Source of the DNA: Thermococcus profundus
Lineage (GTDB): Archaea > Methanobacteriota_B > Thermococci > Thermococcales > Thermococcaceae
NCBI RefSeq assembly: GCF_002214585.1
Contig: NZ_CP014862.1
Location: forward strand, 62,001-126,000
Length of the DNA stretch: 64,000 nucleotides
Direction of reading: 5' to 3'
Of the stretch, positions 20,247 through 64,000 are shown piece after piece (the stretch's first letter is position 1; every line of letters starts with the position of its first letter). Below the pieces are notes generated by a model. The model saw only the letters and a program-made list of their open reading frames with translations. It made no database searches and had not been told where the DNA came from. A program made the position numbers and the translations under genes.

Positions 20247-20975
20247 ATGGGAGTCGAAAAGGTTCCGAAGTACGACATACCCACGAAGAAGGTTGATTAC
20301 GTTTTTATCGAGCTCGACAAGATGAAGCCTCACGAGCAGCTCGTTCAGAAGGAGCTTGAAGCTTTTATCGAGAGCGTTACCGGCTCCGGGATCTTCTGGA
20401 AGCCTATGCTCCTCGCGAAGGTTCCGGGAGAGGACACCTACCTCATAGTTGACGGCCACCACCGCTGGGCCGGCCTTCAGAAGCTCGGCGCCAAGAGGGC
20501 TCCATCAGTTATTCTCGACTACTTCAGCGACGATGTGAAAGTTTACACCTGGTATCCTGCGTTCAAGGGCGACCTCAACGAGGTCATCGAGAGGCTCAGG
20601 AAAGAAGGCCTCGAGGTCATCGAGGATCCAGAGGCCGAGGAGAAGGCCGAGAGGGGTGAGATAGCCTTCGCACTCGTCGGCGAGAAGAGCTTCGCCATAC
20701 CCGGCGGCCTCGACGAGCAGAAGAAGGTCAGCAAGGTCCTCGACGAAATGAGCGTTGAAGGCAGGATTGAGCTCATCTACTACGGTCTCAAGGAAGATGC
20801 TAGAGAGGACATGGGCAAGGGCGAGATCGACTACGTCTTCATCAGGAAGGCCCCGACCAAGGAAGAAGTTATGGAGCTCGTCAAGCGCGGAGAGGTTTAC
20901 TCTCCAAAGACCACGAGACACGTCCTCCCGTTCAACCCGGACAAGATCGACGTGAAGCTCGAGGAGCTGTTTTAA
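20247..20975 (+). CDS. serK: ADP-dependent free serine kinase (ParB/sulfiredoxin-like fold)
   Basis: A 242-residue protein matching SerK of Thermococcus kodakarensis, which phosphorylates free L-serine with ADP to give phosphoserine for cysteine and other synthesis. The catalytic Glu30 (KPHEQL) and the VDGHHRWAGL motif with Asp69 and His72 are all present. The fold is ParB-like, so automatic annotation often calls it a ParB or transcriptional protein. A purine-rich GGAGGG lies upstream. It is a single gene with a T-rich stop after it (around 20990-20998). Confidence 0.95.
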   Translation: MGVEKVPKYDIPTKKVDYVFIELDKMKPHEQLVQKELEAFIESVTGSGIFWKPMLLAKVPGEDTYLIVDGHHRWAGLQKLGAKRAPSVILDYFSDDVKVYTWYPAFKGDLNEVIERLRKEGLEVIEDPEAEEKAERGEIAFALVGEKSFAIPGGLDEQKKVSKVLDEMSVEGRIELIYYGLKEDAREDMGKGEIDYVFIRKAPTKEEVMELVKRGEVYSPKTTRHVLPFNPDKIDVKLEELF

Positions 20976-21048
20976 TTCCAGTATTCTTCTTGTTTTTTAG
21001 AAACTTTTATCTTGTACTGTCATGAGCAGTTCAATGGAGGCAATGTCC

Positions 21049-23010
21049 ATGAGTATATCTTGGGTTGCTTCTACTACGAATATACTTTGGATTGTAAGTG
21101 ATTTGGAACAGTACAAGGCTTGGTTAAGCAAGTTTCATGGGATAAACCTAGAGAACAATCAAAGTCTTGCTGACAATATTTTTCTTGGATATAAGTTCTT
21201 TTTTGATGTAGGATTTAGAGCTCTTATCGAAGACTTGGACTCTTATCCTTGGTTCAATGGAAACGATGAAATTTTCATGAGAGCTTGGACCCGAGGTGTT
21301 TATTTAGATGAAATCCCTAACAGCTCGGAATATGTTGTTTTTCTTAAAAACTTGTGGTATAAGAACTTAGAAAAGGTGCTATTGGCCAAAAATTGGGAAT
21401 CTCTTGAGAAAAGGTTAAAATACTTCCGAAAAAACGTCCTGTCGAGATTTTTTAAAGTGCTTGAATGTTGTATAACACCGAAGTCTCCATTTACTCGGGA
21501 CCAACTATACCGTTTGTGGGCTATGGACGATGCTCTTGTTAGATATGTAGATTCCCAAATGGGTCATCCCAAAGCATACATTGATATTCTGATCCCAACT
21601 ACAAGTAAATATTACAGGAATAACAAAAATTACTTGGTCTCAGTTTTTCAAGGCTATGTTTATACCCTCCAATATTTGTGGTATTCAATACTCGATAAGG
21701 AACAATTTCTGAGGATTCCACATCTAAATGAAATGCATATTGCAGATAAAGTGTTTGGAAAGGAAGTATTAAGAGAATTAGGTGGATGGCTACCAGAAGA
21801 GGAGTTTAAAATAAGGCAGACTGAATTTGAGCGTTATATAAAATGGAAAAGCCTAGATCGTTTTTTTGGAATTTTGAATATGCATCTTGTTAGGAAGCTT
21901 GAAAAAGAGTACGGGATCCGAATTAGTCCCTCTAATGGAGAGATATTTGAACTGCATTGTAAATGTAACCCCCGAGAGATCCTTAAAAAGTTCTATTCCA
22001 CACCATTCCCTGAGCCCAATTTCATGAGTCTTAGCAATAATCCAGATAAAACTATGAACTATGAAGATTGGAAGAAGTATTTAAATGTAAAATTTCTATG
22101 GTATCCCTTGGATGTTCTTAGCTCTGGAGCTGGTGGTACATTTAATGGAGCAGCTGCGCTTATATACCTTCTTTCAGGTATTTGTGAATTTAAGAAAGAG
22201 CATGGGATTAAGGATCCTACTCGAGTCCTACGAATAAAACACAGAGAATATTTTGAAGATAAATTGATTGGTCATAGGATATCATACGCTCTCTTGGTAG
22301 AGGCCTTCGGAGAACTTTACTCTCATCCCGGCTGGATTGTTTTTTATGACGTGGGGACTGATTTTTCAGGTACAGGAGGTTCTTGGTATTATTCTGTAGA
22401 AGAGGTAATTAAGAAGTATCATCAAATGCTGAAAATCGACGAAATTATTGTGCCTGAAATGATTTTTAGAAAGTATCTAGTTGATGAATCGATACGTGAA
22501 GTTTCAAAGGAGCATCTTCAAATAGAAGAACTGAAAAAGAAGGTCTTAAGTTGTGAAAATCTGCTTAAAGGAACAGAAGAAGCCCTATCTGTATGCAGAG
22601 GATTACTCCCGGAGCTCATTGTCTATCTTCTAATAAATTCTGAGGAACTACCCATCAAAACTCTGAAAAACGTAAAATGGCGCGCTAAGGTCCGAGGAGA
22701 AGAAATAGACGTATTGGCAATCGATGAGATAGGGAGACCCCATGTTTTTGAATGTAAGTTTGATGTCCACAAAGAAGAGTTTGAGTCGATAGTACAACAG
22801 TTAGAGAGAAAAAAGATGGCTATAAGAGATGCATACAAAAAACTGCCTGTTCTCTATTTGATCTTTCTTTTCAACAAAAACAATTATGATTTAACACCCC
22901 TCACTAAACATGACATCAATGTTATAACATTGGAGAGAGAGCTTAGAAAGTATTTAGGCATTGGAACTATTGATAAGCTGTTGAATATGAACAAAACATC
23001 CCTTGATTGA
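21049..23010 (+). CDS. AT-rich orphan protein with C-terminal PD-(D/E)XK nuclease-like domain
   Basis: About 653 residues. I do not recognise the first 500, which are rich in aromatic and charged residues and look globular and soluble. A charged helix (about 485-515) leads to a C-terminal segment with GEEIDVLAIDEIGRP then HVFECKFD: Asp554, Glu568 and Lys570 fit the D-(x)n-E-x-K core of PD-(D/E)XK nucleases, also used by restriction and CRISPR-associated nucleases. Codon use and base composition are much more AT-rich than the neighbours, a sign of transfer. Start ATG 21049 is spaced eight bases from GGAGG; ATGs at 21022 and 21043 are alternatives. No partner gene lies beside it. Confidence 0.7.
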   Translation: MSISWVASTTNILWIVSDLEQYKAWLSKFHGINLENNQSLADNIFLGYKFFFDVGFRALIEDLDSYPWFNGNDEIFMRAWTRGVYLDEIPNSSEYVVFLKNLWYKNLEKVLLAKNWESLEKRLKYFRKNVLSRFFKVLECCITPKSPFTRDQLYRLWAMDDALVRYVDSQMGHPKAYIDILIPTTSKYYRNNKNYLVSVFQGYVYTLQYLWYSILDKEQFLRIPHLNEMHIADKVFGKEVLRELGGWLPEEEFKIRQTEFERYIKWKSLDRFFGILNMHLVRKLEKEYGIRISPSNGEIFELHCKCNPREILKKFYSTPFPEPNFMSLSNNPDKTMNYEDWKKYLNVKFLWYPLDVLSSGAGGTFNGAAALIYLLSGICEFKKEHGIKDPTRVLRIKHREYFEDKLIGHRISYALLVEAFGELYSHPGWIVFYDVGTDFSGTGGSWYYSVEEVIKKYHQMLKIDEIIVPEMIFRKYLVDESIREVSKEHLQIEELKKKVLSCENLLKGTEEALSVCRGLLPELIVYLLINSEELPIKTLKNVKWRAKVRGEEIDVLAIDEIGRPHVFECKFDVHKEEFESIVQQLERKKMAIRDAYKKLPVLYLIFLFNKNNYDLTPLTKHDINVITLERELRKYLGIGTIDKLLNMNKTSLD

Positions 23011-23190
23011 AATATCTGGTAACAACTTATTTTAATCCCATCTTTCCTACTCTTAATGCCCGATGACGATGGATCAACCGGCTGAGCCGTGATGACCAGT
23101 CCAGGAATCCGAGGGCTGCATATGCACCTACATAACCACTTACAAAAAAGGTACTTATATTCGCTCACCGTCGGTTCTTACGGTGGAAGC

Positions 23191-47904: not shown

Positions 47905-47952
47905 GGCGGAATTCTTTAATATTCCTCAACGTTTTTTTACATGGTGAGTGAG

Positions 47953-49296
47953 ATGCGGTTAAAGAAACTCATCGTCAAGAACTTCAAGAGCCTGCGAGAC
48001 TGTGAGGTTGAGCTTGGAAAGTTCAACGTTCTAATCGGAGCCAACGCCTCTGGAAAAACAAATCTAATCGAGGTTTTCAAACTCCTTAGGAAAATCTACG
48101 TTGAAAAGGACACTAACCCCTTCCTCGAATGGTGGGGCTACAACAACGTCGTTTGGGGCGGAAAGGAAGAGCTCCCGATAACCGTGGGGATGCTCTTCGA
48201 TGTTGATGGTTATGAGGTGTACTTTGAGACGACCTTTACCGGAACGGGAGGAAGCTTTAGGATTCTGAGAGAGGTGATGGACGCCAGGGAGTACGTAATC
48301 ATTGAGAAAATTGGGTCAATAGTTAATATCAAACACTCCGAGGGCCTGATTAGGAGGATTAACGAATTCCCTGACCATGCAAAGTACATTGCAGAAAACC
48401 ATCATATCAACGAGTTAGATCCAATTCGACAAGACCTGAAGAACCTAAAACAGATGATCTCTCAACCTTTTAGCCTACAGGGAATGCCCCAAGAACACAG
48501 TGTTATCTCATTAATAGCCCCATTAACTCCGCAGACGATGATGCTAAACACTCTTTTTGTAGATAGCCCAGTGCGACTAACTCTTGTTGGTGTCCCTGAG
48601 AATTATACTTTCGTCGCGACTCCTTTTATGGGAGATGAGGATAATTTGGAAGTGTCTCTTTTGTCAAGATTTGTGATTAATTTTATAGATTTCCTAAACT
48701 CAATAACCCTTAGAAGACTTTCTTCGTCTGTTAAAACTCCCCAGCTACCCCGTAAAGAAACCCTTTTGGTGGAGGACGCCTCGAACCTCATCCCAGTCCT
48801 CTATAACATCTGGCTCCGTGAGGGAAAGTTACCCGCTGAGATAGCCGAACCACTCTCAATTGCCTTTCCGGACACCAGGGTCTTCTTCCAGCTCACGGAA
48901 GACGGAAGGGTGATGATGAAGGTCTTTGAGGGCGAACTCGAACTAGCGCCCCCGGGAATATCCGACGGATTCTACAAGACCCTTGCAATTCTTACAGCTA
49001 CATACCTTAAACCTCCCCTCCTTATCATCGACGAGGTGGAGAACTCACTGCATCCTGAGACCCTCGAACTGCTCCTTGATACCCTGAAGGAAAGCGAGAG
49101 CCAGGTGATAATAACCACCCACTCACCGGTTGTGGTTGACATGACTGACCCTAAGGATGTGATCTTCGTTGAAAAGATTCACGGAGAAACTGAATTCAAG
49201 AGAATTCCCAACCCAGAGGAGATTAAAAAGATGCTTCAGGAGAAAGGGCTGGCTTTCAGCGAGGGATGGCTCTACGGGGAGATCTTCAAAGAGTGA
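47953..49296 (+). CDS. ABC-type AAA ATPase (OLD/RecF-like) of a two-gene module
   Basis: About 447 residues. N-terminal FKSLRDCEVELGKFNVLIGANASGKTNLIE is the SMC/RecF-like start with Walker A at 29-36. The long middle is divergent and AT-rich. The end has a signature-like PPGISDGFYKTLAIL, Walker B PLLIIDEVENSLHPE (Asp360-Glu361) and H-loop TTHSPVVVD (His390). This is the AAA_15/21-type ATPase common in OLD nucleases, retron, PARIS and Gabija-like defence systems. The TOPRIM-like gene follows 19 bases downstream, suggesting one operon. ATG 47953 follows GGTGAG; ATG 47941 is an alternative. Function by inference only. Confidence 0.8.
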   Translation: MRLKKLIVKNFKSLRDCEVELGKFNVLIGANASGKTNLIEVFKLLRKIYVEKDTNPFLEWWGYNNVVWGGKEELPITVGMLFDVDGYEVYFETTFTGTGGSFRILREVMDAREYVIIEKIGSIVNIKHSEGLIRRINEFPDHAKYIAENHHINELDPIRQDLKNLKQMISQPFSLQGMPQEHSVISLIAPLTPQTMMLNTLFVDSPVRLTLVGVPENYTFVATPFMGDEDNLEVSLLSRFVINFIDFLNSITLRRLSSSVKTPQLPRKETLLVEDASNLIPVLYNIWLREGKLPAEIAEPLSIAFPDTRVFFQLTEDGRVMMKVFEGELELAPPGISDGFYKTLAILTATYLKPPLLIIDEVENSLHPETLELLLDTLKESESQVIITTHSPVVVDMTDPKDVIFVEKIHGETEFKRIPNPEEIKKMLQEKGLAFSEGWLYGEIFKE

Positions 49297-49315
49297 AAAT
49301 AAGCGGTGAATGTCG

Positions 49316-49840
49316 ATGTCATCAGGTTCAAAGGAGATTGTTTTAATCGTGGAGGATGCTTATGGGGGAGAGTTCTTCAAAAGGGTTCTAAAGAGACTCA
49401 ACGAGTTGGGGATGCTGAGTCGCAACGTTCGCCTTAAACGGCTTTCGGGTAGAAAGAATCCAATTCACGTTCCATATCTTTGCAATTCGAAGTTAGATAG
49501 AATGATACTAGCAGCTAGTACGTCGTCCCCTGATACGATTATAGTGGTCTACGATGGTGATGGTCCTAGTACATATCACAAAAGGTTCAATGATGCCAAA
49601 AGTCACATCCCCAAGAACATTAAAACATCTGTTAGGGTGTTTCTTTTTGAATACGAGATTGAAGAGTGGATATGCAGGAGTCTGGGCATAACGTGGGATA
49701 CCAAGCCCTCCGACGAACTCAAAAGAAAAATAAGATACAAGAAATCACTGCTTCCCACGTATGCGGACAAGCTGGACTTTGACAAACTTAAACGGAACTG
49801 CAAATCCTTTAGAAAATTCCTGGAGATTCTGGAGGAATAA
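49316..49840 (+). CDS. TOPRIM-like (DUF4276/RloB/AriB-style) partner protein
   Basis: A 174-residue protein. Glu13 ([13 protein letters not shown]), the acidic pair Asp80-x-Asp82 (VVYDGDGPS) and Glu114/Glu118 (FEYEIEEWI) follow the E...DxD...E order of TOPRIM-related nuclease families such as DUF4276, RloB and the AriB subunit of PARIS. It follows an ABC-type ATPase gene and precedes truD, with two bases between stop and start. ATG 49316 suits GGTGA spacing; ATG 49310 is an alternative. It is AT-richer than the flanks. A nuclease or toxin role is inferred, not shown. Confidence 0.7.
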
Positions 49841-60252: not shown

Positions 60253-61374
60253 TTACATCGACATAAGTCCTATCTCGTTGAAAATCTTCTTCACGTCCTT
60301 TGTTTTTATGACCCGGGGGTATGAGGAAGTAACTCTACGTGAGACCATTCGAAAAATGAGCTCCTCAAGCGTTTTGGATCCATACTTTTCGGAAAGCCAC
60401 AGCGCATGTACAGGAGATCCTCTCATCACTTCATCCCATGCCTTTACCGTTGCTTCCCATACTATTCCGAGATGTTCTATGTGTTTCTGGCTCTTCCTAA
60501 GTTTGGAGTTTATATCCTGAAGTTCTTTGATAGTTGTCTGTTCAGGGTCAATTTTGGTGCAACTCTCGATGAGCCCCTTCAGATTCTCTACTTCCCCAAG
60601 AACGGCTTTCCTGAAGAGCTTTGTCAAAAAGAAGTTGTCTTTATTGCTCTCCATCAGGTACTTTGCGGGCATGTATGCGAAGATGTTAATGTTGCCGTTG
60701 AGTATCATTTGACTCACTTCAATCAGCCGTTGGAATTCTTTAATGAGGTACTCTCTGAAGGTTTCCTCTGAAATTTCAAGGATTCCTTTCTTGTAACTCC
60801 ATATTGGCAAGCGGGGGATATTCAAAAAGAATTCATTATCCGGCCTTTGTCCTTCAGGGTAATACACAACGTGAAGTTCTAGGCTTCCACAGTGAATTTG
60901 GCCACAAATTCTTCTCCGTATCAAAGTTGGCATAAAGTCTCTCACATCATAAGGAACAGCTACATTTGTGAAGTCCTCGAGCCTGAACATCGGAAGCCAG
61001 TTGTATACCCAAGGTTGTTTGAGTCCAAGGTTAATTAACTCATCGGCGTACTCATAGATAAAATCCAAGAAATTGACGCGTTTGAGATGCATCTCCTCTC
61101 GGTACTTGTCCACGAGCTCCAGAATTTTCCATTTGTTTTCACGGAGATCTCTAATGAAGTCTTGCCATTCCCTTCTAACTTCTTTGACTTCAAAGGCATG
61201 TATCGTTATATCAATGTCCCTTGCCCCTGATGTCCTCAAAACACTTCCCGAGAGGTGGATTTCTCTGATTTTGAAAGGAAGATGATCTCTATTGACATAC
61301 TCAACTATCTCAATAAGCTCTTCGATCTTTCCCTTAAGCTTCTGAGCCTTTATTAAGTCAAAAACAGTCGGCAT
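60253..61374 (-). CDS. Nucleotidyltransferase-fold protein of unknown role
   Basis: A 373-residue protein. HLSGSVLRTSGARDIDITIH contains Gly43-Ser44 and Asp53-x-Asp55, the pattern of the Pol-beta nucleotidyltransferase fold (MNT, CD-NTase, tRNA CCA-type). The rest is helical and not recognised; the end is rich in basic residues. AT-rich. It converges on infB and is preceded by a TATA-like TTTTTATAG about 60 bases upstream with an inverted repeat between. Could be a toxin, antitoxin or signalling enzyme; no HEPN or effector partner was found next to it. Confidence 0.6.
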   Translation of the reverse strand: MPTVFDLIKAQKLKGKIEELIEIVEYVNRDHLPFKIREIHLSGSVLRTSGARDIDITIHAFEVKEVRREWQDFIRDLRENKWKILELVDKYREEMHLKRVNFLDFIYEYADELINLGLKQPWVYNWLPMFRLEDFTNVAVPYDVRDFMPTLIRRRICGQIHCGSLELHVVYYPEGQRPDNEFFLNIPRLPIWSYKKGILEISEETFREYLIKEFQRLIEVSQMILNGNINIFAYMPAKYLMESNKDNFFLTKLFRKAVLGEVENLKGLIESCTKIDPEQTTIKELQDINSKLRKSQKHIEHLGIVWEATVKAWDEVMRGSPVHALWLSEKYGSKTLEELIFRMVSRRVTSSYPRVIKTKDVKKIFNEIGLMSM

Positions 61375-62983: not shown

Positions 62984-64000
62984 CTACAATTCATCAAAAT
63001 CCTCCAAATCCCAAACCAAAAACCCCTCCTCCCTAAGCTCCGCCTTTCCTTCAATCCTTTTGGCAACTAGCCCGTAGTTTTTCTTCCAGTCCTCCAATGC
63101 GACAAGCTCCGCCTTCCTCTCCAAACCCTTCAAAATTCCCCTCGCCTCTCTCTCGCTCAAATCCTTCCACTTCACTTCAACAAAGAGTGCCTTCCTCTCC
63201 CGCTCGTTGAGAGCAACGATGTCAATCTCCTCGCCCTTATACCACCACCTACCAATCTTGGTAAAGGGGAACCCCGTCAGCCTGAAGAAGACCTCGGGGG
63301 TTCTCACGAGCCTCTCGAAGACATAACCCATGTAGGCGTTAAAGTCCTCCGCTGAGCGCTCCCAAACTCTTTCTCCAAGGCCGGCCTCGAGGTAGCTCTT
63401 GTTCGGGAGAACGTAGCGGAACCAGAAGGTGAAGTAGTTGTCCTTAATCGAGTAAAGCCCCCGCTTGCTCATTGCTTTCAAGGTCGCCGTTACGGGGACT
63501 TCGCGCTCGACTATCCCGAGCCTCTGAAGAACCGTCAGGTACTTTGAGACGAGGCTCTTATCGAGTCCGGTGGCGTTCACTATCTCCCCAAAGCGGTTCC
63601 TTCCGCCTGCTATCGCCTGCAGTATCGCGAAGTAGTTTGCCGGTTCGCGGAGCTCCTCCCGGAGCAGGAACTCCGCCTCCTCGTAGAGGAAGGCACCCTT
63701 CGAGAGGACTTTCTCAACCACGTTCTCATCAAAGCCCTTCCTCGGATCGAACTGGAGCAGATACGCCGGGATTCCCCCAACAACGCCCCACGTCTTTACG
63801 AGATCTTCGGCAGTGTAGCCCGGCAGGAACTCCCCCAGGTAAAAGAACGGGATCTCGGTCAGCCGCCACTGTCCGGTTCTCCTTCCATAGAGGGGGCTTT
63901 TATAGACTAAAACCTCACTCTCCATCGCCGAAACGCTTGAACCACAGAGGACGAGCATTATTCTGGTCTTCGACAGCTTCAGATCCCAGGCCTTCTGGAG
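62984..64000 (-). CDS. Archaeal AAA ATPase with DUF234 domain (partial)
   Basis: The last 338 residues of a larger protein; the start and the Walker A region lie outside the window. Visible are LVLCGSSVSAME (sensor-like), the helical lid, a winged helix (RFGEIVNATGLDKSLVSKYLTVLQRLG) and a C-terminal DUF234 domain with GEEIDIVALNERERKALFVEVKW, a PD-(D/E)XK-like core. These ATPase_2/DUF234 proteins are abundant in hyperthermophilic archaea and tend to be accessory; activity unknown. Confidence 0.88.
   Translation of the reverse strand, partial: LQKAWDLKLSKTRIMLVLCGSSVSAMESEVLVYKSPLYGRRTGQWRLTEIPFFYLGEFLPGYTAEDLVKTWGVVGGIPAYLLQFDPRKGFDENVVEKVLSKGAFLYEEAEFLLREELREPANYFAILQAIAGGRNRFGEIVNATGLDKSLVSKYLTVLQRLGIVEREVPVTATLKAMSKRGLYSIKDNYFTFWFRYVLPNKSYLEAGLGERVWERSAEDFNAYMGYVFERLVRTPEVFFRLTGFPFTKIGRWWYKGEEIDIVALNERERKALFVEVKWKDLSEREARGILKGLERKAELVALEDWKKNYGLVAKRIEGKAELREEGFLVWDLEDFDEL

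Follow-up and report, generated by a model that had tools for sequence, protein, structure and literature searches.

The 64,000-nt stretch of DNA analysed here (the window) carries an AT-rich gene that stands by itself between serK and a small RNA gene of a Thermococcus chromosome, raising the question of how it arrived there and what its product does. A preliminary description regarded it as an orphan of 650 residues. The protein has 653 residues and is no orphan, as 23 further loci were found, in many archaea. Its product is likely a standalone, sensor-gated PD-(D/E)XK candidate immune effector, of a family with no description in the one open-access library searched. The features of the locus are as follows.

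20247..20975, forward strand: serK (ADP-dependent L-serine kinase), left flank of the insertion; NCBIfam NF053625 above cut-off.
20970..20979, forward strand: TTTTAATTCC, left junction, a near copy of the right-junction sequence.
20976..23029, no strand: inserted segment of about 2.05 kb with one gene, absent from the 29 congeneric genomes examined.
21001..21011, forward strand: AAACTTTTATC, plausible archaeal BRE/TATA promoter element of the gene, judged from sequence only.
21036..21040, forward strand: GGAGG, Shine-Dalgarno-like, 8 nt before the start at 21049.
21049..23010, forward strand: gene for a 653-aa putative sensor-nuclease, an ATG-initiated frame ending at 23010.
23030..23039, forward strand: TTTTAATCCC, right junction.
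23059..23114, forward strand: C/D-box sRNA gene (Rfam sR14), right flank; RF01145, 39.2 bits versus a gathering threshold of 38.

Four ATGs are in frame (21022, 21034, 21043, and 21049), and the last is the best supported start because GGAGG lies upstream of it and a 66% identical relative in genome G054 starts at the same residue (MSLSW in the window protein, MSISW in the relative). The gene has a GC content of 0.362 and a GC3 of 0.341, versus GC3 values of 0.66–0.76 in seven neighbouring genes, and codon choice is shifted relative to the neighbours for Lys (AAA/AAG), Glu (GAA/GAG), and Arg, bearing out the preliminary observation that composition and codon use differ from the surroundings. 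Across the family, genes are AT-richer than their flanks at 17 of 18 loci, with a mean difference of about -0.1 GC. Low GC is thus a family trait, and composition points to no particular donor.

Transfer had been proposed from composition, but the empty site is the stronger evidence for it. In 29 congeneric genomes the C/D-box sRNA gene follows directly after the serK stop; the distance from that stop to box C of the sRNA, measured automatically in 27 of the 29, is 29–65 nt (median of 34), versus 2086 nt in the window. The insertion is precise and adds one gene, and the proposal of a transferred gene stands. Its junction sequences, TTTTAATTCC and TTTTAATCCC, are near-identical, possibly reflecting microhomology or coincidence, and its ends show no terminal inverted repeats. 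Because the insert carries a single gene, we rejected the idea that it is left over from a larger mobile element. The 66% identical copy in G054 occupies the same place between serK and the sRNA gene, and in both genomes serK ends in TTTTAA, versus TTCTGA or TTCTAA in empty-site congeners. Because place and altered serK end are the same, the two insertions probably have one origin, despite serK of G054 being only 85% identical to that of the window, versus 90% for G020, which shares a higher serK identity. Downstream of serK in G054 is a HAD-like gene with a C/D-box-like sRNA sequence on either side (L029 11150-12300), and many congeners have a similar HAD-like gene after the first sRNA.

The C-terminal part of the protein carries the features expected of a nuclease.

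22597..23007, forward strand: predicted PD-(D/E)XK nuclease domain, residues 517–653, related to Card1/Can2 and DUF234 nuclease domains.
22612..22614, forward strand: E522, the glutamate in the helix of the core, present in all 18 nuclease-type members.
22708..22710, forward strand: D554, in 18 of 18 nuclease-type members.
22750..22758, forward strand: E568-C569-K570, with E and C in 18 of 18 and K in 16 of 18.

The window protein has all of the hallmark residues (E522, D554, E568, and K570), and the last three are where the preliminary description had placed them. A profile of the tail matched Card1 (8e-5), Can2 (4.6e-4), and AF1548 (2e-3) in the PDB, with catalytic residues aligned. In Pfam, tails gave weak but consistent matches to PD-(D/E)XK families (DUF234 in six members, as well as Card1_endonuc, Mrr_cat, and NERD); for the window protein alone, no match passed a curated cut-off. 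The core fold of the superfamily is alpha-beta-beta-beta-alpha. AlphaFold models built from the single sequence, one of the full length and one of the tail, are of too low confidence to be informative about it (pLDDT of only 35 and 41); the modelled element order is H510-529, E543-549, E552-558, E564-570, and H575-587. By profile matches and conserved residues, we assign the domain to the PD-(D/E)XK superfamily, in agreement with the nuclease core first suggested. The preliminary description had counted homologues without the D/E/K residues against that suggestion. D554 and E568 proved invariant among nuclease-type members, and K570 did not, being replaced by S in G276 (ECS) and by T in G1036 (ECT); three further relatives lack the nuclease as a result of effector replacement. 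Pfam matches to HindIII and Mannitol_dh and matches of the tail profile to Sp-100 were discarded as chance.

The remainder of the protein is the part that the family holds in common.

21049..22518, forward strand: conserved N-terminal module, residues 1–490, a predicted sensor, delimited by alignment.

This module of ~490 residues is found in every full-length member and varies less from member to member than the tail does. Residues G47, G377, H398, S412, Y413, W429, and F432 are invariant in the family, and P174, G202, Y203, W351, and D438 are nearly so. Its profile had no PDB match at E<=10 and no significant Pfam match, consistent with the first impression that it is unlike known proteins, and the whole protein had no significant match in PADLOC, PHROGs, or NCBIfam. 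Three relatives keep the module and have another tail. In G667 the tail is SLFN_AlbA_2 (1.8e-19), and in G487 and G672 it is a common helical tail (E 2e-10) unrelated to the nuclease. A tree built from the N-terminal part places the G487/G672 pair within the nuclease-type members (96/93) and requires two changes of tail. A constant front joined to an exchangeable effector is a frequent layout of prokaryotic immune proteins. At L061 8620-10647 and L063 8853-10859, a common tail of ~200 residues stands in place of the nuclease and has no significant Pfam match; it is possibly an unrecognised effector or a partner-binding domain.

The family comprises 24 loci including that of the window, and the other 23 are all archaeal and sparsely distributed. 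Profile searches for relatives covered archaeal genomes and tblastn searches covered plasmids and phages. By tblastn, a Haloarcula marismortui plasmid proved to carry a full-length relative (profile comparison E 2e-17), which was also reached independently from two other family members and was the sole match when four members were searched against plasmids. Searches of three members against phages by tblastn returned no match, and pattern scans of genome contigs and viral contigs returned no relatives. The family occurs in Thermococcus-type archaea, on the Haloarcula plasmid, and in further archaea, of which some are apparently methanogens. Weak matches to the family in G126 and G147 were discarded as chance.

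Within the genus, the gene is present in only three of 61 genomes and is a pseudogene in one of the three. In Thermococcus-type genome G036, the copy is a pseudogene of 45% identity, with two stops and a frameshift, and lies at another location, near what we take to be idsA and leuS. At least four copies are decayed (G036, G343, G1160, and G1205), perhaps also that of G1159, which has one in-frame stop; for draft genomes among these five, sequencing error is possible. The remnant in G343 (L027 9853-10556) has an internal deletion and lies beside apparent mttB genes, and G394 has an intact copy at the corresponding place, by apparent mttB genes. Between the window genome (G000) and G054, dN is 0.24 for the family gene versus 0.04 for serK, with dS saturated, and differences at the three codon positions are 0.29/0.16/0.56. 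The gene evolves fast under constraint.

These patterns bear on two alternatives to an immune function. One is a selfish mobile gene of the homing-endonuclease or transposase type, which would use the nuclease for its own spread; a single-gene insertion that is AT-rich, patchy in distribution, and accompanied by decayed copies would fit. However, insertion sites differ between lineages, intact genomes have one match each, terminal inverted repeats are lacking, and in three relatives it is the nuclease that was swapped out and the large N-terminal module that was retained. We regard this alternative as very unlikely. The other is a nuclease of DNA repair or recombination that has a large scaffold domain. 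PD-(D/E)XK domains are indeed frequent in repair enzymes, but so rare a presence in the genus, combined with fast evolution, frequent decay, and exchange of the effector, makes this highly improbable.

Neighbourhoods of several relatives contain defence genes. In G309, a type IIG restriction-modification (R-M) gene, an ATPase gene, the relative, an EVE gene, and a HicA gene are all on one strand, and in G1036 there is a 4-nt overlap between the relative and a type IIG R-M gene. The relative in G487 adjoins genes for HsdM, HsdS, a DUF262 protein, and an OLD-like ATPase, that in G341 is beside AbiEi-AbiEii, that in G541 is 1.9 kb from a gene for a NACHT protein, and that in G672 is near a PIN_8 gene. 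Directly upstream of the relative in G1130 is a gene that we take to be methyltransferase-like. No defence gene is evident near the relatives in G394, G754, and G667 or adjacent to the window copy. The pattern is one of association only. Near the relative in G701 are a helicase gene and a DUF6884 gene (L062 2967-5154), perhaps part of a DNA-modification system.

Since several relatives are located beside antiviral genes and the nuclease or effector domain is exchangeable, the product of the gene is probably an immune protein. The same two observations lend support to the preliminary comparison with single-gene defence nucleases that have a big sensor. The neighbourhoods could also reflect an accessory or back-up nuclease of R-M systems that works together with DNA methyltransferases, for example one that cuts when the resident R-M enzyme is inhibited, of which the Thermococcus copy would have become detached. 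Type I or IIG modification genes adjacent to the relatives in G309, G1036, and G487 are consistent with this, as is the presumed methyltransferase gene of G1130. Yet most loci are without such a neighbour, the window copy is alone between serK and the sRNA gene, and the adjoining R-M systems differ in type, and for the family as a whole we find an R-M accessory unlikely.

Comparison with known systems suggests where a standalone immune effector of this kind would fit. Card1 and Can2 (PF09002, Card1_endonuc) share with the window protein a C-terminal nuclease domain with alignable core residues and a layout in which a sensor, here a predicted one, precedes the nuclease. The Card1-type nuclease domain is matched by the family profile; with the window protein taken singly, the match does not reach curated significance. 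That Card1 and Can2 are the best solved relatives of the nuclease domain, and that PADLOC CARF_PDDEXK matches three members, could indicate an ancillary effector of type III CRISPR systems gated by cyclic oligoadenylate. However, the front part here spans ~490 aa and is not CARF: neither Pfam nor PADLOC yielded a CARF or SAVED match in it, and in the one member inspected the CARF_PDDEXK match falls on the C-terminal part. Most carriers are also without Cas10. Its palm domain (palm2) is found in three of 16 carrier genomes and is absent from the window genome, which is 99.96% complete, and no CRISPR genes were recognised beside inspected relatives. Because a CARF domain is lacking and Cas10 is so seldom present, a role in type III CRISPR immunity is unlikely in the extreme.

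The nearest working analogue of a standalone immune nuclease is Shedu (SduA), a PD-(D/E)XK immune protein encoded by a single gene, whose N-terminal sensory modules vary (PMC12839542). The single-gene PD-(D/E)XK architecture is alike, whereas in the family described here the front module is constant and the effector varies, and no member has a DUF4263 (PF14082) or SduA match in Pfam or PADLOC. The nuclease domain also resembles that of DUF234 archaeal ATPases (PF03008), with scores of 18.1 bits for the whole protein and 20.8 bits for the tail, both below the cut-off of 22.5, but the window protein had no ATPase match at E<=10. Likeness to Schlafen proteins (SLFN_AlbA_2, PF04326) is confined to the G667 relative, which joins AlbA_2 to the same N-terminal module; in the window protein the nuclease takes the place of AlbA_2. 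An ECK-type PD-(D/E)XK core is shared with type IV restriction enzymes (Mrr), and one member has a weak Mrr_cat match, but no modification-reader domain was detected in the family. On the best explanation, the family would be similar to Shedu or Card1 in logic and belong to neither.

For such a candidate immune effector, we infer the following mode of action. The N-terminal module would keep the C-terminal nuclease inactive and would sense a sign of an invading virus or plasmid. Sensing would free the nuclease, which would cleave with the help of E522, D554, E568, K570, and a metal ion; its target would be either the nucleic acid of the invader or, at a cost to the cell, any nucleic acid. The gene, carrying a promoter and ribosome-binding site of its own, would spread by horizontal transfer as a single-gene cassette and would often be lost. 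More tentatively, and with somewhat less than an even chance, the ~490-residue module may be a new archaeal immune sensor fold for a specific invader cue, and a chassis that swaps PD-(D/E)XK, Schlafen-type, and at least one unknown helical effector, wired into R-M operons in some lineages.

A 2026 survey of archaeal immunity reported that in nearly a third of archaeal genomes no defences other than CRISPR and restriction-modification are seen, and that archaeal defence systems may evade homology-based detection (PMC12988326). If our reading is correct, a family with a constant module and interchangeable effectors, unnamed in the libraries scanned, would be such an escaped system. The gene is a defined, testable single-gene candidate in a genetically manipulable genus, and the conserved H398/SY/GW/D motif offers residues for mutation in the putative sensor.

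Three other places in the window merit mention. A low-GC pair at 47941-49840 (forward strand) encodes an SMC/AAA-type ATPase (451 aa) and, 13 nt on, a 176-aa protein that is presumably TOPRIM- or RloB-like, such that the pair appears by eye to resemble two-gene defence pairs of an ATPase plus an effector. At 62984-63958 (reverse strand) is what we take to be the C-terminal part of a DUF234-type archaeal ATPase, the tail of which, GEEIDIVALNERERKALFVEVKW, is strikingly like GEEIDVLAIDEIGRPHVFECKF of the protein studied here. Lastly, an AT-rich gene at 60253-61374 (reverse strand) encodes 373 aa with a possible nucleotidyltransferase motif, SGSVLRTSGARDIDI, and is a candidate acquired gene.
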